Assembly: GCF_001610835.1 (NCBI RefSeq)
Contig: NZ_CP011270.1
Location: 3,118,001 to 3,182,000, forward strand
Length of the DNA stretch: 64,000 nt
Reading direction: 5' to 3'
From: Planctomyces sp. SH-PL14
GTDB taxonomy: Bacteria > Planctomycetota > Planctomycetia > Planctomycetales > Planctomycetaceae
Position 1 is the first letter of the stretch. Every line of letters begins with the position of its first letter. Shown piece after piece: positions 2,643 to 10,295 of this stretch. Both the position numbers and the translations under genes were made by a program. Under the pieces are notes generated by a model. That model did no database searches, was not told where the DNA came from, and saw only the letters and a program-made list of their open reading frames with translations.

Positions 2643-4640
2643 ATGGCCACGAACGTTGTGACAACGAGTGCGGACGAGATTCCGCGCGGCGATCTGGCAG
2701 GCTTCAAGAAGTACCTCGGGAAGGATCTGCTGTCCGGGTTTCTGGTTTTCCTGATCGCCCTGCCGCTGTGCATCGGGATCTCGCTCGCCAGCGGCGCTCC
2801 GGCCCAGGCGGGGATCTTCACGGCGATCATCGGCTCGATCGTCACGTCGCTCATCAGCAATTCCGAGCTGACGATCAAGGGACCGGCGGCCGGTCTGATC
2901 GTGATCGTCTTCGGTGCGGTTTCGCAGCTTCAGCATGACTTCAACACCGACGCCTACGGGGCCTACCGCCTGATGCTGGCGGTGGGGGTCGCGGCGGGAG
3001 TCATCCAGATCGGCTTCGGCCTGCTGCGGTCGGGGATTCTGGGAGAGTTCTTCCCGACAACGGTCGTCCACGGGATGCTGGCCGCGATCGGCCTGATCAT
3101 CATCTCGTCACGGTTCCACGTCATGCTGGGGCTCAAGGCCCCGAGTCCGAATCCGCTCCTCAACTTCGCCGCCTTTCCCAGCTCGATCCGGGACATGAAC
3201 CCCGAGATCGCGCTGATCGGCCTCCTGAGCCTGGCGGTACTGATCTTCTTTGCGATGGCGAAGAACAAGACGCTGAAGCGGGTCCCGGCTCAGATGGTGG
3301 TGCTGATCCTGGCCATTCCGTTGGGGATGTATTTCTCGCTCGGCGAAGACCACACGTACACGCTGGCCGACCACCAGTACACGATTCTCAGCAAGGACTC
3401 GGTCGTCAACCTGCCCGACAGCATCTTCCGCTCGATGCTCTCGAAGGACGGCGGCCTGCTGCCGGACTTCCGCGCGCTCCAGACCTTCAACGGCTGGAAG
3501 TGGGTCCTGATGTTCTCGCTCATCGCCAGCCTGGAGTCGCTGCTGTCGGCGAAGGCGATCGACCTGCTCGACCCGTGGAAGCGGAAGTCGAACATGAACC
3601 GCGACCTGTTCGCGTGCGGGATCGCGAACACCGCGGCGGCCATGGTCGGGGGGCTGCCGATGATCTCCGAGATCGTCCGCAGCAAGGCGAACATCGACAA
3701 CGGGGCCCGGACGCGGTTCGCCGACATGTGGCACGGCGTGTTCCTGCTGGCCTTCGTCGCTCTCTTTCCCGGCCTCATCCACCGGATCCCGAACGCGGCC
3801 CTCGCGGCCATGCTGGTCTTCACCGGCTACCGGCTGGCGTCGCCGAAGGAATTCATCCACCTGTGGAACATCGGCCGCGAGCAGCTGATCATCTTCGTGG
3901 CAACGATCATCGGCGTTCTGGCGACGGATCTCCTGATGGGGATCGGGATCGGGATCGCGACGAAGTTCGTGATCCACATGATGAACGGGGTCTCGCCGTG
4001 GGACCTGTTCAAGACGTATCTCGACGTTCAGGAGGAGCCGGACGGGACGTGCCTGGTGACCGCGCGGGAGTCGGCGGTGTTCAGCAACTGGATCCCGTTC
4101 AAGCGGCAGCTCGAGCAGATCGGCCTCGTGCAGCGGAACAACATCGTCCTCGATCTGTCGAACACGAAGCTGGTCGACACGACGTTTATCGAAAAGCTGC
4201 ACGGGCTGCAGTCTGATTTCACTGCGGAGGGGCTGTCGCTGAAGATCACGGGTCTGGACAGCCACCGGACCAACACGGGGCATGCCTTCGCAACGCGGCG
4301 GCGGGGTCTCATTCCATTGCGGCGGATCACGGTGACGGCGGACACCGATCTGGAGGAGACGCTGGTGGAGCTGTTCGTCTCGCGGGGCGCGACCGGCTAC
4401 ACCGTGATCCCCTGTCATGGAGCGGGGAAGTCCGAACTCAACGTCGGGCTCCCGGCGGTGCCGCAGATCCGGTTCGAGGTCGTGGTGATGCCGGAGCTGG
4501 CGGAGCAGGTTGTGGAGGTGCTTCGGGAGCAGATCCTCCCCAAGGCGGGTGTCACCGTAGTGGTGGAAACGGTGGAGGTGATCCGGTTTGGGGCGTTCGT
4601 GAGCGAGCAGGGTGTGCCGTCGCAGCCGGCGCATCACTGA
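2643..4640 (+). CDS. SulP family anion (bicarbonate/sulfate) transporter with STAS and C-terminal PII-like domain
   Basis: A 665-residue inner-membrane transporter. Residues ~20-440 form the SulP core with about 11-12 hydrophobic segments and family motifs such as SNSELTIKGPAAGL, ESLLSAKAIDLLD and a VGGLPMISEI/SKANIDNGARTR loop. Residues ~455-545 form a STAS domain (NIVLDLSNTKLVDTTFIEKL). An unusual C-terminal module of about 100 residues follows: RRITVTADTDLEETL, GYTVIPCHGAGKS and a strand-helix-strand (RFEVVVMPELAEQVVEVLRE, then VVVETVEVIR). It resembles the ferredoxin-like fold of PII/SbtB-type regulators. SulP proteins of this branch are often bicarbonate or sulfate importers; the substrate here is an inference. 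The ATG at 2643 directly follows a GC-rich leader. Confidence 0.9.
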   Translation: MATNVVTTSADEIPRGDLAGFKKYLGKDLLSGFLVFLIALPLCIGISLASGAPAQAGIFTAIIGSIVTSLISNSELTIKGPAAGLIVIVFGAVSQLQHDFNTDAYGAYRLMLAVGVAAGVIQIGFGLLRSGILGEFFPTTVVHGMLAAIGLIIISSRFHVMLGLKAPSPNPLLNFAAFPSSIRDMNPEIALIGLLSLAVLIFFAMAKNKTLKRVPAQMVVLILAIPLGMYFSLGEDHTYTLADHQYTILSKDSVVNLPDSIFRSMLSKDGGLLPDFRALQTFNGWKWVLMFSLIASLESLLSAKAIDLLDPWKRKSNMNRDLFACGIANTAAAMVGGLPMISEIVRSKANIDNGARTRFADMWHGVFLLAFVALFPGLIHRIPNAALAAMLVFTGYRLASPKEFIHLWNIGREQLIIFVATIIGVLATDLLMGIGIGIATKFVIHMMNGVSPWDLFKTYLDVQEEPDGTCLVTARESAVFSNWIPFKRQLEQIGLVQRNNIVLDLSNTKLVDTTFIEKLHGLQSDFTAEGLSLKITGLDSHRTNTGHAFATRRRGLIPLRRITVTADTDLEETLVELFVSRGATGYTVIPCHGAGKSELNVGLPAVPQIRFEVVVMPELAEQVVEVLREQILPKAGVTVVVETVEVIRFGAFVSEQGVPSQPAHH

Positions 4641-4715
4641 CCGGTGCCCGGTGGGGGAGAGGCTGAAGACTTAAGGCGGAAGGTCGAGCGGGTGTTCGAT
4701 CTCGTCCCTGATCCA

Positions 4716-4850
4716 CCGGGTCCAGGACGGGGCCTTGCTGGGGGATGTGAGGGGGCCCAAGAAACGACCCTAAAGAACGACACAGTCCCCCTGCCCGCAG
4801 GAGGGCCGGCCGTCGAGAACCGTGGAACGCGGGGAGTGTCCGACCGCGGT
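4716..4850 (+). repeat. Degenerate copy (K) of the structured intergenic repeat, left module
   Basis: The stretch begins CCGGGTCCAGGACGGGGCC about 76 nt after the SulP stop. It then shows the repeat's GGGGGATG spacer, a run of G, a Cys-codon-like CCCCCTGCCCGC block, and GGCCGGCCGTCGAGAA, which matches GGCCTGGCCGTCGAGAG of intact copies. The first hairpin is broken and the right half is not recognisable. It shares a GGGGGCCCAAGAAA variant with the decayed copy at 22960, so the two may form a sub-family. Confidence 0.55.
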
Positions 4851-5045
4851 TCCGCGTCGAATGCCCCCCCGTAACCTCGTTGCAGGTTGCGGGTGCAAGC
4901 GGCCGTCGGGTGAGCTTTTCTGCGGCCCCCCGTTGTCAGGGCACGCCTTCGCTGCACAGCGTCGAAGATGGCGGCCGCGAGAGCGACCGACGCGGCTCGG
5001 CCGGAGCCTTGCCCTCCCGACGGAAGACGGGTTTCGCCCGCACGC

Positions 5046-5435
5046 TCAAGCAGCGCGGACCGCACGGATCTCGCCCGGAGGAAGCGTGTAGCGGGAGGCC
5101 CGCGTCCGATTGACGGCGGTCTGGGCCTTGCCCGGCTTCCGCTCTTCCACCTCGCAGCGAACGAGGGTCACCTTCTCCGCCGTCACGCTCTCCACCTGCC
5201 CCGTCACCCACGTCTCCGTGGCGTCGACGTACTGCAGGATCGTGACATATTGCCCTGGCTGAACGTCTTTGATCGCCAGCGGCCGGCCCATGGGACGCGG
5301 CGGAAGCTTGTCGTTGGGAACGGCAACCATCGCGGACTGCGCCTGCTGGTGCAGGGGCGAGCCGGAGTTCGAGTTCACGGAAGAGCATCCCGCGACAACG
5401 AGCGCAACGAAGAGAGGCATCGAAACAGGACGCAT
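5046..5435 (-). CDS. Small lipoprotein of unknown function
   Basis: A 129-residue predicted lipoprotein. The start MRPVSMPLFVALVVAGCSS has a short charged n-region, a hydrophobic core and a lipobox ending in Cys at residue ~16. The mature part is hydrophilic and small, with an LAIKDVQPGQYVTILQYVDA stretch and a VESVTAEKVTLVRCEVEER stretch. These look like a compact beta domain, perhaps OB- or SH3-like, but I do not recognise a family. The ATG at 5435 was chosen because it places the lipobox correctly; the frame stays open for 56 further codons upstream without making sense. It is divergent from the small gene at 5631. Confidence 0.65.
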   Translation of the reverse strand: MRPVSMPLFVALVVAGCSSVNSNSGSPLHQQAQSAMVAVPNDKLPPRPMGRPLAIKDVQPGQYVTILQYVDATETWVTGQVESVTAEKVTLVRCEVEERKPGKAQTAVNRTRASRYTLPPGEIRAVRAA

Positions 5436-5563
5436 CGGTTCACCTGCGGAAAGACCGGGTCCGCGGAGAATAACGCCGCTCCCCCGGCCACCAAGCGGAG
5501 TCGCCCGGCGCGACCTTCGGGACGGCAGGAATCGCCGTACTTCCACGCCGGCGCTCCGTGCAT

Positions 5564-5579
5564 GGGCGCACCTCTTGCA
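5564..5579 (+). promoter_or_regulatory. Candidate sigma-54 (RpoN) -24/-12 promoter
   Basis: GGGCGCACCTCTTGCA has GG at 5565-5566 and TTGCA at 5575-5579, with the GC exactly 12 nt after the GG, as sigma-54 requires. It differs from TGGCAC-N5-TTGCA at two bases of the -24 half. The predicted transcription start is near 5590, about 40 nt before the ATG at 5631. A better match stands before the next operon at 6069, which supports this weaker one. Confidence 0.45.
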
Positions 5580-5630
5580 CTTGGGTTCCCATCGCTTTGC
5601 CACCCGTCCGCTCCAAACAGGGGACTCATT

Positions 5631-5843
5631 ATGGATACCTCACCTGCCCAACCGACGCCGCAGAAGCCGGTTCCGGAGGAGGCTCAGAAGCCGTCCCACG
5701 GCTCGCGGCCGGCGGGAACGACCGCCCAGAAAACGGAGACCACGCCCGCCCAGGAGCGAGGCGAACGGATCGACACCGGAAAGACGATCGCCCGCGGCGG
5801 GAAGACGACCGGACATGTCCCGGGAGCCACCCCCTCCTCCTGA
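5631..5843 (+). CDS. Small hydrophilic protein, unknown
   Basis: A 70-residue protein starting MDTSPAQPTPQKPVPEEA. It is rich in Pro, Thr, Gln, Lys and Gly and has no hydrophobic segment, so it is probably intrinsically disordered. An AGGGGAC stretch lies about 8 nt before the ATG. The sigma-54-like promoter 52 nt upstream and its position just ahead of the stress cluster argue that it is a real gene of the same response. No family is recognised. The short length and low complexity leave some doubt that it is translated. Confidence 0.5.
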   Translation: MDTSPAQPTPQKPVPEEAQKPSHGSRPAGTTAQKTETTPAQERGERIDTGKTIARGGKTTGHVPGATPSS

Positions 5844-6149
5844 ACGAACGCGGGTCCGGTCCGAGCTGGAGCCGTGCAGACGATCCGGCGGCGGAACCGC
5901 TTGCTTCACCGGAACACAGGATGCCGGACGAGGGGCCAGCGATCGTCAACAGCCTGACGGGCTGAAAGCCGTCCTCCGAATCCGGCAGAAACGATCGCCC
6001 GTCCTAACCCGTTTCGATCAAAGGGCTTTCTGAACATAACGCCGGGCAATCTTGCTGGAGCCCAGTCACGGCACACCCCTTGCTTCATAGTCTTGGCGAG
6101 AGCCGCCGCATTCAGGCGGAGTCTGAAAACACAGGCAGAGGAGAGATCC
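5844..6149 (+). other. Leader region of the envelope-stress operon
   Basis: Contains no gene. It holds an inverted repeat at 5950-5964 (CAGCC, 5-nt loop, GGCTG) and the sigma-54-like promoter at 6069-6084. The inverted repeat lies about 110-120 nt upstream of the -24 element, the distance at which enhancer-binding activators of sigma-54 commonly bind. Its role as an activator site is an inference. Confidence 0.45.
6069..6084 (+). promoter_or_regulatory. Probable sigma-54 (RpoN) -24/-12 promoter of the envelope-stress operon
   Basis: CGGCACACCCCTTGCT matches the sigma-54 consensus TGGCAC-N5-TTGCW at all positions but the first. The invariant GG (6070-6071) and GC (6082-6083) are separated by 10 nt. 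Transcription would start near 6095, leaving a leader of about 55 nt before the CsbD gene at 6150. No sigma-70-like pair competes with it in this interval. Confidence 0.6.
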
Positions 6150-6593
6150 ATGGTCACGCGGCAGCAGCTCGAAGGAAAGTGGAACGAAGTCTCGGGACGC
6201 ATTAAGGAGAAGTGGGGCGTCATGACCGATGACGACCTCTCGCGTGCTGAGGGGAATGTCGAACGCCTCGTCGGCGTGATCCAGCAGAAGACCGGCCAAG
6301 CCCGGGAAGAGGTCGAGCGGTTCATCGACTCGATCGTGGCCGGTTCGCGGCCGGCGATGGAGCGGATCGCTTCGACCGCCCGCGACTATGCCGCCTCGGC
6401 CCGCGATTACGCCGCGGACGCGCAGGACACGATGCGCCGCCAGTATGACAACGTCGAGCAGTCGATCTCGGCGGGTTACCAGGAAGCGGAAGAGTGCGTC
6501 CGCCGCCGTCCGGTCGAGTCGGTCGCCATCGCCTTCGGGGCCGGACTCCTCTCCGGCGTGCTCGTCGCGGCTCTGCTCCGCGACCGCCGCTAA
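6150..6593 (+). CDS. CsbD-like / DUF883-like membrane-anchored stress protein
   Basis: 147 residues. The first ~60 resemble the CsbD stress-protein family (QLEGKWNEVSGRIKEKWGVM, then DDDLSRAEGNVERLVGVIQQ). A helical middle follows, with repeated ARDYAA/SARDYAADA units. The C-terminus, RRPVESVAIAFGAGLLSGVLVAALLRDRR, is a single glycine-rich membrane anchor of the ElaB/YqjD (DUF883) kind. ElaB/YqjD proteins tether stationary-phase ribosomes to the inner membrane in E. coli; CsbD is a general-stress protein of unclear role. The ATG at 6150 follows GGCAGAGGAGAGATCC, a good ribosome-binding site. First gene of a six-gene run ending at 8371, under the sigma-54-like promoter. Confidence 0.8.
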   Translation: MVTRQQLEGKWNEVSGRIKEKWGVMTDDDLSRAEGNVERLVGVIQQKTGQAREEVERFIDSIVAGSRPAMERIASTARDYAASARDYAADAQDTMRRQYDNVEQSISAGYQEAEECVRRRPVESVAIAFGAGLLSGVLVAALLRDRR

Positions 6594-6730
6594 GCGTGTT
6601 CATTCCGCCGCGAGTCGCCACCCGAGTTCGAATCCCGGTGGCGACGGCCGGCGTGTTCACTCATACCGTCTGTCCTCGGGCGCCGCCGGGGACGCCACAC
6701 CTCGTGAGAACCCCTCTAAGGAGTGAGATC

Positions 6731-6958
6731 ATGATTCAGCGATCCGGGGCATTTGCAATGCCCGAGATGGACTTCAAAAGGATTCCGGAAGCGATGCAGG
6801 AAGGCCTGCAGTCGGCGAGGGAGACGATCGAGGAGTACCCGGCGAGCGCGGTCTTTGCCGCCTTTGGCTTGGGGCTCGGCGTCGGAGTCGGCCTGGCACT
6901 CCTGATGGGAGCCGGGTCCATGTTCACCCCCGCCGCACCTCAGCGTCGGTACTGGTAG
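6731..6958 (+). CDS. Small tail-anchored membrane protein (DUF883-like anchor)
   Basis: 75 residues: a short amphipathic N-terminus (MIQRSGAFAMPEMDFKRI) and helix (QEGLQSARETIEEYP), then one glycine-rich membrane segment at residues ~40-62 (VFAAFGLGLGVGVGLALLMG) and a short polar tail. The YPASAVFAAFGLGLGVG pattern copies the end of the CsbD/DUF883 protein just upstream, so this is probably a reduced paralogue. AAGGAGTGAGATC precedes the ATG with ideal spacing. A 137-nt gap separates it from the first gene with no terminator, so co-transcription is likely. The function is unknown beyond membership of the stress cluster. Confidence 0.65.
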   Translation: MIQRSGAFAMPEMDFKRIPEAMQEGLQSARETIEEYPASAVFAAFGLGLGVGVGLALLMGAGSMFTPAAPQRRYW

Positions 6959-7030
6959 CAGCCCCTCCCCGGCCGGTCGGCCAACGCGGCGGACACAGGC
7001 CGCAGAAACAGACATCGAGAGTCGGCAGCC

Positions 7031-7477
7031 ATGACCTCCGATCCCGAAGAGCTTCGAAACCAGATGGCCCGCATCCGCGCGGGAGCGCGCTGGAAAGCGG
7101 TGCAGATCAAGCGGGAAACGAAGCAGCTCACCGACTGGAAGTACTACGTCAAGAGCTATCCCTGGGTCGTCGCCGGTGGGGCATTGCTGCTGGGTTACCT
7201 CCTGGTTCCGCAGCGTCAGGCCCCCCGGACCGTGGCCCTCCCTATGGGAAAACCGCCGCAGGGACCGAGCGAAGAGACGGTCGAAGTGGCGAAGAAGACG
7301 GGACTGCTGGCCGGGGCCGCCGCTCTGATCTGGAGCGTCGTCTATAAGGCGGGGACCACCTACGCGACCCGCCGTCTTGCGCAGTTGCTGACCGATAACA
7401 CTGCCTATGCCGCCAAAGCGCAGGCCGAGGCCCGACGAGAACACGAGAATGTCTTTGACCGTTCCTCATACCGCTGA
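7031..7477 (+). CDS. Membrane protein of the stress cluster, unknown
   Basis: 148 residues. A charged N-terminal helix (residues ~1-40, DPEELRNQMARIRAG) leads into a first membrane segment (YPWVVAGGALLLGYLLVP, ~44-61). A Pro-rich linker and a second hydrophobic stretch (GLLAGAAALIWSVVYKAG, ~92-110) follow, then a polar C-terminus. The first membrane segment repeats the P-x2-x-GGxxLLG anchor style of its neighbours. No named family is recognised; partial similarity to DUF883/DUF3618-type proteins is an inference. Its 3' end overlaps the start of the next gene by 29 nt, which indicates translational coupling. Confidence 0.65.
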   Translation: MTSDPEELRNQMARIRAGARWKAVQIKRETKQLTDWKYYVKSYPWVVAGGALLLGYLLVPQRQAPRTVALPMGKPPQGPSEETVEVAKKTGLLAGAAALIWSVVYKAGTTYATRRLAQLLTDNTAYAAKAQAEARREHENVFDRSSYR

Positions 7478-7640
7478 TTTCGCCGGCCTTGCCCGCGATC
7501 CCCAGACCTCTGGAGTGGCGCCGGGTCCGTCGGGTGTCCCGACGGTTGTGGCCGCGACCGTTTCCCAATTCCCAGGCGTCGCCGTCGGCGCCGCCCTCGC
7601 TGCCGGAGTGATGCTGGGATGGTTCGTCAAACGCATGTAG
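7449..7640 (+). CDS. Very small tail-anchored protein, unknown
   Basis: 63 residues, starting MSLTVPHTADFAGLARD. It has an unstructured middle and a C-terminal membrane segment FPGVAVGAALAAGVMLGWFVKRM. The final LGW-x-x-K/R pattern recurs at the end of the last gene of the cluster (FVLGWKLRPW). It starts inside the previous gene and its own last 22 nt overlap the next, so it is embedded in a tightly coupled run. The overlaps and shared anchor make a real gene more likely than chance, but small size leaves doubt. Confidence 0.5.
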   Translation: MSLTVPHTADFAGLARDPQTSGVAPGPSGVPTVVAATVSQFPGVAVGAALAAGVMLGWFVKRM

Positions 7641-8104
7641 ACCCGCCGCGGTTCCAGACCGCGGCGCCCGAGCCGCCGTTCACGACGGTCGAGGAGGTCC
7701 GGCACCATTTCTCGGAGCTGGCCTACGACGTCATCACGCTCGGGGAACTGCAGGTCCGCCTGCTGGTCCACGACGTGAAGGAGACCGGTCGCCGCGCAAC
7801 GGTCGGTATCGTGTTCCTGATGGCGATGACGGCGATCCTGCTGGGATCCGTTCCCGTCCTGCTCCTGGGTCTCGGCGAACTGCTGGTCCAGGCGGCTGGC
7901 TGGAATCGCGCCGGGTCCTATCTCCTGATCGCGTCGCTGGCCGCGGTCGGAGCGGTCGCGGCGGGGCTGTACACCGTCAAGAAGCTCAAGAAGGCCGGAG
8001 CCTCGCTCAGCCGCTCCAGTTCGGAGCTGCAGAGCAATCTCGCCTTCGTGAAGTCCCTTTTCCGAAAGCCCGACGCTCCGTCCAGCACCACTGTCGTCTC
8101 CTGA
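7619..8104 (+). CDS. YqjE-like / holin-X superfamily (PF07332-type) membrane protein
   Basis: 161 residues. The cytoplasmic N-terminal helix (VEEVRHHFSELAYDVITLGE, LQVRLLVHDVKET) leads into two adjacent membrane helices (~62-88 and ~97-120, joined by a short polar turn). A basic C-terminal helix follows (TVKKLKKAGASLSRS). This is the architecture of the putative actinobacterial Holin-X / YqjE family. In E. coli, yqjE sits in one operon with the DUF883 gene yqjD, the same pairing as here. It is not thought to be a phage holin despite the family name. The ATG at 7619 overlaps the preceding stop region by 22 nt. Confidence 0.75.
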   Translation: MVRQTHVDPPRFQTAAPEPPFTTVEEVRHHFSELAYDVITLGELQVRLLVHDVKETGRRATVGIVFLMAMTAILLGSVPVLLLGLGELLVQAAGWNRAGSYLLIASLAAVGAVAAGLYTVKKLKKAGASLSRSSSELQSNLAFVKSLFRKPDAPSSTTVVS

Positions 8105-8170
8105 CGGCGCAGCCAGATCCACCGAATCATGTCACACCGATCCACAAAGACAAAGAAGGAGAATTCCGTC

Positions 8171-8371
8171 ATGGCCCGCATCGCCAACGAGCTGCCCGGT
8201 CAGCGAGAAGAACGGTCCGCCGCTGCGCTCCCCCCCATGGAGAGTCGCAAACAGCCGGGACAGGATCTGGCCACCTATCTGCGGGACTACGCCCGCGAGG
8301 AACCGGAGATGGCCGCGCTGTGGTGTCTGGGGATCGGATTCGTCCTCGGCTGGAAGCTCCGTCCCTGGTAA
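8171..8371 (+). CDS. Small tail-anchored protein, last gene of the stress operon
   Basis: 66 residues: a hydrophilic N-terminus (MARIANELPGQREERSAAAL), the linker QDLATYLRDYAREEPEMAAL, and a single membrane segment ending GIGFVLGWKLRPW. The REEP-x-MAALWCLGIGFVLGW pattern is again the ElaB/YqjD-type anchor. The ATG at 8171 has AAGAAGGAGAATTCC in front of it. An in-frame ATG at 8129 would add a polar, Lys-rich 14-residue leader without a ribosome-binding site, so it was not chosen. A rho-independent terminator follows 50 nt after the stop. Confidence 0.65.
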   Translation: MARIANELPGQREERSAAALPPMESRKQPGQDLATYLRDYAREEPEMAALWCLGIGFVLGWKLRPW

Positions 8372-8420
8372 GTCCCGGGCAATCCCGCCGGCCGGCTCCT
8401 CCGGAGCCATCCGGGTTTCG

Positions 8421-8472
8421 ACGACGCGCGACCGGGATCGAACGATCCCGGGACCGCGTCGTTTGTGTTTTG
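8421..8472 (+). terminator. Rho-independent terminator of the stress operon
   Basis: A two-step stem: outer arms ACGACGCG / CGCGTCGT and inner arms CCGGGATCG / CGATCCCGG around a 2-nt AA loop. The tail TTTGTGTTTT follows. It lies 50 nt after the 8371 stop and 100 nt before the next gene, so it marks the operon end clearly. Confidence 0.85.
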
Positions 8473-8573
8473 GTCCGTCCGGCCTTATTGAACCGGCATC
8501 ACGGCGCGGGCGATCGTCATCGCCGCCGAGCCGGCTGATCGATCGTCCGAGGCAGGAGTAACCAGGTCGCACC

Positions 8574-9509
8574 ATGCGTCGACTCGCTACTGGAGTGCGG
8601 TCCTACGTTCTCCGGCTGTACGCCGCGTACGAAGCCTTCAACCGGGACGGCGGCTACCACCTGGCGGCGGCGGCCGCGTACTTCTTCGGCCTGGCGCTCT
8701 TCCCGATGCTCTCCGTCGGGATCATGGCGCTCGGCTGGTTCCTCCGCTCTACGCATGCCGGCCAGGACGCCCGGATCCTGATCCTCGACCAGGTCGAGGA
8801 TCACGCCTCGCCGGTCGTCGCGGAGCAGGTCCGGCAGCTCATGGAGCAGATCCAGTTCGGGTCGTCCCAGGGGGGGCTGATCGGGCTGGCAATGCTGTGC
8901 CTGACGGCCCTGGCCGGCTTCGCCCAGCTCCAGCAGGCGTTCGACCGGATCTGGAACGTCCCGGTCCCCGAGCGGCCGGGGATCTGGTCCTTTCTCAGGC
9001 AGGTCCTCTTGGAGCGGGCGGCCGCCTTCCTGATGCTGATGCTGACGGGGGCGCTCGTGCTGGCGGCGTTTTTCTTCTCGACGGTCATGACCACCGTGCA
9101 GGGGTGGGCCGAGCGGCTGCACGTCACGACGCCGGCCCTCTTCTGGACGACCTCGCAGGCCCTGATCTCGCCGACCGTGAACGTTCTGGCCTTTACGCTG
9201 GTTTACCGTTGGCTCCCCAAGGCCCGCGTTCCGTGGCGGGACGTCTTCCACGGCGCGGTGCTGGTGGCGGCCGCGTGGGAGCTGGGCCGGCATGCCCTGG
9301 CCGCCATCTTGATCGGTACCCATTATTCGACCGCGTACGGGATCGTGGGGGCGTTCATCAGTCTGCTGGCGTGGTGCTATTACGGCTGCCTGCTGCTGCT
9401 GCTGGGGGGCGAGTTCGTCGCTTCGCTTGGCCGGGAGCGCTGGACCGGCCGGCCTCCCGAAGAGATGCTCAAGAGCATTTTCCGCACGACGGACGAGGCG
9501 GTGGCCTAG
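8574..9509 (+). CDS. YihY/BrkB family inner-membrane protein
   Basis: 311 residues with six hydrophobic segments. Family landmarks are the N-terminal DGGYHLAAAAAYFFGLALFP, the LQQAFDRIWNVP element, and the closing YSTAYGIVGAFISLLAWCYYGCLLLLLGGEF region. YihY/BrkB proteins were once called ribonuclease BN; that assignment is withdrawn and their role (envelope integrity or transport) is open. The ATG at 8574 follows the terminator of the stress operon. The gene is followed after 9 nt by the zinc/Fe-S protein gene, so the two are probably co-transcribed. Confidence 0.85.
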   Translation: MRRLATGVRSYVLRLYAAYEAFNRDGGYHLAAAAAYFFGLALFPMLSVGIMALGWFLRSTHAGQDARILILDQVEDHASPVVAEQVRQLMEQIQFGSSQGGLIGLAMLCLTALAGFAQLQQAFDRIWNVPVPERPGIWSFLRQVLLERAAAFLMLMLTGALVLAAFFFSTVMTTVQGWAERLHVTTPALFWTTSQALISPTVNVLAFTLVYRWLPKARVPWRDVFHGAVLVAAAWELGRHALAAILIGTHYSTAYGIVGAFISLLAWCYYGCLLLLLGGEFVASLGRERWTGRPPEEMLKSIFRTTDEAVA

Positions 9510-9518
9510 GGGCGATCC

Positions 9519-9968
9519 ATGAACAAGGCGTTCATCAAGGAGAATGACGGGGCGGACCAGGGGTTCTGTCCGCGGTGCGGGCAGGCGGGGATCGCCGTGG
9601 ACGAGGCTCCGCTGGAGACGCATCTTCCGCCGGAGTTGCGGGCGACGCTGGGACGGTCGGTCTACTGGTGCGATCACCCGGACTGCCGTGTCGCGTACTT
9701 TGACAACTTCGATGCGGTCGTCGGTGTGGAGTCGTTGCGGGGGCCGGTCGCTCCGAAGGATCCGGCGGCTCCGCTGTGCAGTTGTTTTGGCGTCACGTAT
9801 GACGACGTGCAGGAGGATGCGGAGGAGGGGAAGCCGACGCGTATCCGGGAGCTGTATCGTCGGTCGCAGTCGCCGGAGGCGGCGTGTGGCCGGTTGGCGC
9901 CGAGTGGGCGTTGCTGTCTGCCAAGTGTTCAGAAGCTCTACTTTCAGCTCCGCGGTGGTATCGATTGA
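9519..9968 (+). CDS. CopZ-like zinc-ribbon / [2Fe-2S] cysteine-rich protein
   Basis: 149 residues with two cysteine clusters. The first is a zinc-ribbon-like set, FCPRCGQ ... WCDHPDCRVAYF (residues ~16-62). The second, CSCFGVT ... CGRLAPSGRCC (~87-135), resembles the bacterioferritin-associated-ferredoxin/NifU-type [2Fe-2S] module. The same two-module order forms the N-terminal half of archaeal CopZ copper chaperones, which use a redox-active Fe-S centre. The heavy-metal-associated (GMTCxxC) domain of full CopZ is missing here. A role in metal reduction or handling is an inference from that likeness; the cluster type needs spectroscopy. Confidence 0.7.
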   Translation: MNKAFIKENDGADQGFCPRCGQAGIAVDEAPLETHLPPELRATLGRSVYWCDHPDCRVAYFDNFDAVVGVESLRGPVAPKDPAAPLCSCFGVTYDDVQEDAEEGKPTRIRELYRRSQSPEAACGRLAPSGRCCLPSVQKLYFQLRGGID

Positions 9969-9980
9969 GCCCCTGACGAG

Positions 9981-10295
9981 CCGGGTCCAGGGGCACCCTG
10001 GTGGGGGATGCAAGGGGGTCACACCCCCTTGCCCGCCGGAGGCTTGTCTCGTCGAGAGTTGTCTGAAGGAGCACGTGTCCAAGCGCGGACACCGTGCCGT
10101 ATGCCCCCTCACCAAGCCACGGGGAGTTCAAAGCGAGCGGTCAGTCCGCAGCGCCGGCTTCACAAAGCGGACGTCCGTTAAATCCCACGGTTCCTCATGG
10201 AAGTGCCTCCGGCGGCAAGGGGGCGTGGCCCCCTTGACCCCAGCCTGCCGTGGCACGTTGGGTTTGAGGTGGCATAGCCGTGCCGGCCTGGACGG
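9981..10295 (+). repeat. Structured intergenic repeat, copy A (full length)
   Basis: Begins CCGGGTCCAGGGGCACCCTGG 13 nt after the 9968 stop and ends near GTGCCGGCCTGGACG. It shows the left hairpins CCAGGG-GCA-CCCTGG and AAGGGGGT-N-ACCCCCTT, a core starting TTGTCTGAAGGAG, and the right arm GCCTCCGGCGGCAAGGGGGC. That right arm is the inverted complement of the left arm. It fills most of the 9969-10414 gap; the remaining ~120 nt contain nothing I recognise. Confidence 0.85.

Follow-up and report, generated by a model that had tools for sequence, protein, structure and literature searches.

A predicted sigma-54 promoter at the head of a conserved CsbD/YqjD/YqjE-like membrane-protein operon in Planctomycetaceae, and a candidate NtrC-type activator

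In Bacillus, csbD belongs to the general stress response, is controlled by sigma-B and encodes a small protein that lacks a membrane tail. In the Psp response it is PspF, an activator without a receiver domain, that together with sigma-54 drives the expression of small membrane-stress proteins. Escherichia coli has a stress and stationary-phase operon, yqjCDEK, whose products include a C-tail DUF883-type protein of the YqjD, ElaB and YgaM family along with YqjE (PMC10746276, PMC6389858); RpoS raises the expression of yqjC, yqjD and yqjE, with a sigma-S promoter at yqjD (PMC10746276). The Pseudomonas aeruginosa envelope-stress and stationary-phase operon PA3040-PA3042 likewise has a DUF883 gene and a YqjE-like gene, a small unknown gene bringing the number to three, and is under the control of the ECF factor AlgU (PMC11302039).

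A survey published in 2025 predicts that in Planctomycetia sigma-54 governs chaperones, proteases, universal stress proteins, MscS channels and ZraR (PMC12316311), and a predicted sigma-54 site is noted in PMC2754498 too. A sequence-only reading of the DNA considered here had described the association of RpoN with an envelope cluster of this type as little described; the link between sigma-54 and stress had in fact already been predicted, but CsbD, DUF883 and the three COGs checked for this operon, COG3237, COG4575 and COG1295, are absent from the main text of PMC12316311. In line with that survey, grpE of the genome under study has an exact sigma-54 site about 49 bp upstream (L003, G000:103152-103165), and in a relative, G140, dnaK- and groEL-like genes lie behind such sites (L179, L184).

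The window, by which is meant the whole 64-kb stretch of planctomycete DNA that was analysed, has six ORFs on its forward strand at 6150-8371. The first, csbD (6150-6593), combines a CsbD domain (PF05532, E 1e-18; 67 bits, passing the curated cut-off of 40) with a C-terminal glycine-zipper tail that is below the cut-off for DUF883_C (21.9 bits against 27, E 1e-4), and the tail, though not filed as a member, appears to resemble DUF883/YqjD in the way it works. Gene 2 (6731-6958, 75 aa) has a glycine-zipper hydrophobic segment, and its orthologue in one relative matches DUF883_C at E 0.002, below the cut-off. Gene 3 (7031-7477, 148 aa) matches no family and is conserved in position in some 35 loci; gene 4 (7449-7640, 63 aa), which overlaps genes 3 and 5, encodes a C-tail hydrophobic helix ending GWFVKRM. 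Gene 5 (7619-8104, 161 aa) is a member of PF07332 (holin superfamily III, YqjE-like; E 4e-12, 46.8 bits against a cut-off of 28.4), and gene 6 (8171-8371, 66 aa), the best conserved among the small genes, has the tail KPxVAALWCFGxGFxxGWKLKPW. The glycine-rich hydrophobic segments of genes 2, 4 and 6 are of like style, terminal or internal, and Pfam places none of the three in DUF883. Most of the products are probably inner-membrane proteins, with a C-tail or two helices, akin to CsbD, YqjD and YqjE, and by analogy with relatives the operon may function in membrane stress.

A terminator-like hairpin followed by the T-rich TTTGTGTTTT (8420-8462, forward strand; -34.4 kcal/mol and z -3.0 for a 66-nt stretch) closes the set, so that both the six genes and the terminator of the operon as originally proposed are present, the hairpin being absent from the list given by a general terminator scan. 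The order csbD-gene 2-gene 3-gene 4-PF07332-gene 6 is found in most of 37 orthologous loci and is kept in about 30 relatives, across L090-L128, with brkB downstream of the operon in some; gene 2 was detected in 25 of the 37 and gene 4 in 22, lower counts that may be due to their small size. A CsbD-plus-tail protein, called by reading where a match extends past the CsbD domain, is encoded by 47 of 150 genomes of the family, and outside the family, elsewhere in the phylum, none was found at E 1e-14, the matches there being to the CsbD part only. The six genes are likely to form one transcription unit, transcribed from a promoter at 6069-6084.

That promoter, the element CGGCACACCCCTTGCT on the forward strand with its GG at 6070-6071 and its GC at 6082-6083, is very probably a genuine sigma-54 -24/-12 promoter, and transcription from it is predicted to start at about 6094-6096. 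Of the 12 informative positions in TGGCACR-N4-TTGCW it matches 11, and it is the sole site with at least 11 on either strand of the window, in which six sites have at least 10; the GG-N10-GC site singled out by the sequence-only reading is thus the best in the window. The geometry alone is uninformative, since the window has 1262 instances of bare GG-N10-GC. Nor is exact GGCACN5TTGC enriched across the genome (8.44 Mb, one contig), where searches of both strands gave 42 occurrences against 63 for the reversed pattern, and so context must decide.

In a comparison of 28 non-redundant operons, those of 27 relatives and that of the window, a site of at least 10/12 is present within 300 bp upstream in 21 (20 of the 27 relatives) and one of at least 11/12 in 15, with shuffle means per 28 operons of 0.45 and 0.03, respectively. 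The control counts were 0 for the opposite strand, 0 for the reversed motif and 0 of 84 for downstream chunks. The distance from site to start codon is mostly 48-100 bp, and because the proteins of the relatives are only some 40-60% identical, plain sequence similarity does not explain the conservation of the element. Several relatives (L095, L106, L120 and L123) are without a good -24/-12 site. The search for further sites ahead of CsbD/DUF883 genes that had been suggested at the outset showed that one of the 42 exact matches is about 200 bp upstream of the second CsbD-plus-tail gene in the same genome, and its short csbD gene has a 9/12 site upstream. Another exact site in this genome precedes a Host_attach/baeRF_family12 gene by about 42 bp (L027, G000:5093054-5093067). 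Three blocks are conserved upstream of the operon in genus g39, namely the -24/-12 element, the ribosome site and a distal block; the last was considered as a family-wide element and set aside, as it does not extend in that form beyond the genus.

The genome has one rpoN gene, on whose presence or absence the sequence-only reading had made its case depend, about 18 strong sigma-54 enhancer-binding proteins (EBPs), for which a check had likewise been proposed, and no match above the TIGR02394 cut-off for RpoS. With both element and operon conserved, and with rpoN and EBPs at hand, control by RpoN of an operon of the CsbD/DUF883-like/YqjE type is strongly supported.

One EBP stands out as the candidate activator. 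It is an NtrC-family response regulator of 489 aa (G000:5317445-5318911; L130:9446-10915), encoded about 2.2 Mb from the operon, with a receiver, an AAA+ sigma-54 interaction domain and a Fis-type helix-turn-helix. The likeness to NtrC is one of architecture only, the score against the NtrC equivalog TIGR01818 being 473.8 bits with a cut-off of 558.6, and it is below the cut-off for all named equivalogs among the matches listed. Ten EBPs picked out in ten relatives, each encoded no more than some 10 kb from the operon, all have this same protein as their best match among the EBPs of the genome studied, at 51-75%, the next reaching 34-42%. Of 150 family genomes, 41 have both operon and regulator, 6 the operon only, 15 the regulator only and 88 neither, regulator orthologues being counted mostly at identities of at least 58%; its presence in 41 of 47 operon genomes versus 15 of 103 others gives a p of 6e-18, which overstates independence because the co-occurrence is partly inherited. 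Where the two share a contig, they are within 25 kb of each other in 18 genomes from 11 genera (0.34 expected), and linkage across so many genera points to a functional tie, though shared ancestry inflates the counts. Genus g39 has sigma-54 sites on both flanks of the regulator gene, and in genera g29 and g37 a PAS-HisKA hybrid kinase gene is directly 5′ of it. For the family as a whole, the linked regulator is probably the activator of the operon. At one g39 locus (L109:14550-16014, minus strand) genes for a short CsbD, a lipoprotein and a PRC-barrel protein form an operon beside the regulator gene, headed by one of these flanking sigma-54 sites, and the first reading frame there has an apparent in-frame stop.

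A likely DNA site for such a regulator is also recognizable at the level of the family. No palindrome emerged from an initial search, which used exact dyads; an unsupervised search of 41 promoters yielded the palindrome cTGGTCGnTnAnCGACCA with a likelihood of 165 versus 59-69 in shuffles. Promoters flanking the regulator gene, taken alone, yielded TG.TCGat.atCGA.CA (69 versus 19-26 in shuffles), and this motif is present in 16 of 35 csbD promoters at p<0.05 and in 6 of 35 at p<0.01, where 1.75 and 0.35 would be expected. The zone of enrichment is 50-190 bp upstream of the csbD-operon promoters. Among the 13 other sigma-54 sites of G140, a set that includes the dnaK- and groEL-like genes as judged by eye, there is a weak palindrome at only two, and a scan of the genome under study for the strict palindrome finds it at three places.

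The window promoter has no clear copy (best score 7.0, p 0.24), nor does the promoter of its nearest relative, L090. The two have ATCGCCCGTCC near 5993-6005 in common, and two CGATCG palindromes 52 bp apart in the window (5940-5945 and 5992-5997, forward strand) are possible activator sites. An inverted repeat at 5950-5964 had earlier been proposed as the enhancer. It exists, with 5-bp arms, at chance level, there being three such repeats in 5844-6069 with 1.6 expected, and 76 of 300 shuffles had at least as many. It was rejected on this ground and for want of a match to the family palindrome.

Were a different EBP to act on the sigma-54 promoter in this strain, with the linked regulator serving the operon only in other genera, the missing palindrome in both the window and L090 would be accounted for. 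The sigma-54 contact loop of the regulator in this strain reads GAFTSA, as against GAFTGA or GSFTGA in 22 other orthologues, which is also in keeping with such a replacement of the activator, and some 17 other strong EBPs are available in the genome. Yet the regulator is kept in nearly all operon genomes (41/47), its recognition helix here looks unchanged, and the short csbD gene of the same genome has a good palindrome (14.9) about 100 bp before its 9/12 site. Activation by a different EBP is on this evidence unlikely, if far from negligible, and we lean slightly toward the linked regulator as the activator in this strain also.

It is improbable that the operon is under a sigma-70 or ECF promoter, with the -24/-12 site an additional or minor start. 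Planctomycetes do have many ECF sigma factors, often used in stress (PMC2754498), but a scan of 4640-10000 for sigma-70-like sites alone found none, and the -24/-12 element is among the three blocks conserved in g39. That the match arose by chance in a genome rich in GC, a reading for which the abundance of the bare geometry and the excess of the reversed motif might be cited, is contradicted by conservation at the same place in divergent relatives with clean negative controls, and is hardly to be credited.

A second sigma-54-like site, GGGCGCACCTCTTGCA (5564-5579, forward strand; 10/12), is upstream of a 70-aa gene (5631-5843, forward strand) with the motif PAQERGERIxTGKxIARGGKxxGxVPGA, which is also present in four other family genomes, where the gene is located elsewhere. 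Judged from this conservation, the gene is real. The sites near the starts of its four relatives are 9/12 in three and 8/12 in one, which is suggestive only, as 9/12 sites are common by chance; the weaker site that the sequence-only reading had pointed to does exist, and its role as a promoter is moderately supported. The family is of low complexity, with the core GERIxTGKxIARGGK, is scattered in a few family genomes, has no Pfam or NCBIfam match and was not found on any viral contig. Also near the operon, at 2643-4640, is a gene for a SulP-type transporter that has a P-II-like domain (PF00543, E 6e-11) at its C-terminus, possibly for bicarbonate uptake with a fused P-II sensor.

The promoter element, the operon, rpoN, the regulator's co-occurrence with the operon and its linkage to it, and the family-level palindrome are all evident in the genomes, and the explanation that best unites them, a sigma-54 operon with a phosphorelay and an NtrC-type activator, is as a whole a probable one. 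A stress or growth-phase signal would reach a PAS-type hybrid histidine kinase, from which phosphate would pass to the NtrC-family response regulator; this would bind palindromic sites, TGNTCGATNATCGANCA, about 50-190 bp upstream and spend ATP in opening the E-sigma-54 complex at the operon promoter. The products would probably serve to shield or reshape the membrane, and perhaps also to anchor ribosomes at it. What we infer in this scheme is transcription itself, the signal and the kinase, what the proteins do, and the action of the regulator on the window promoter. More tentatively, sigma-54 with a dedicated phosphorelay NtrC-type regulator at TGNTCGATNATCGANCA could be a main switch of a conserved membrane-protection regulon in Planctomycetaceae, in the role that sigma-S or sigma-B plays in other bacteria, with the CsbD/tail-anchor operon, the short CsbD, the PRC-barrel protein and perhaps the 70-aa gene as its members. 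In planctomycetes, whose stress regulation is little understood, it is now possible to name a promoter and its operon for such a pathway, together with a candidate activator and the DNA site it is likely to use.

Set beside yqjCDEK, which is sigma-S dependent, the planctomycete operon is predicted to depend on sigma-54 and has a CsbD-tail fusion along with one unknown and three additional small proteins with tails. With Bacillus csbD it has the CsbD domain in common, the membrane tail being present only in the planctomycete protein. Unlike PspF, the candidate activator belongs to the response regulators and has a receiver domain, and no PspA-type gene was found among the six. The receiver, sigma-54 interaction domain and Fis helix-turn-helix of the candidate are likewise those of NtrC, ZraR and AtoC, though it is below the cut-offs of the named equivalogs listed. 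As E. coli uses RpoS and P. aeruginosa AlgU, the locus would represent an operon of known type that is served by another sigma factor and has an apparently dedicated activator, which suggests that like membrane-stress operons have been wired to different sigma factors according to phylum: sigma-S, AlgU, sigma-B and, here, sigma-54.
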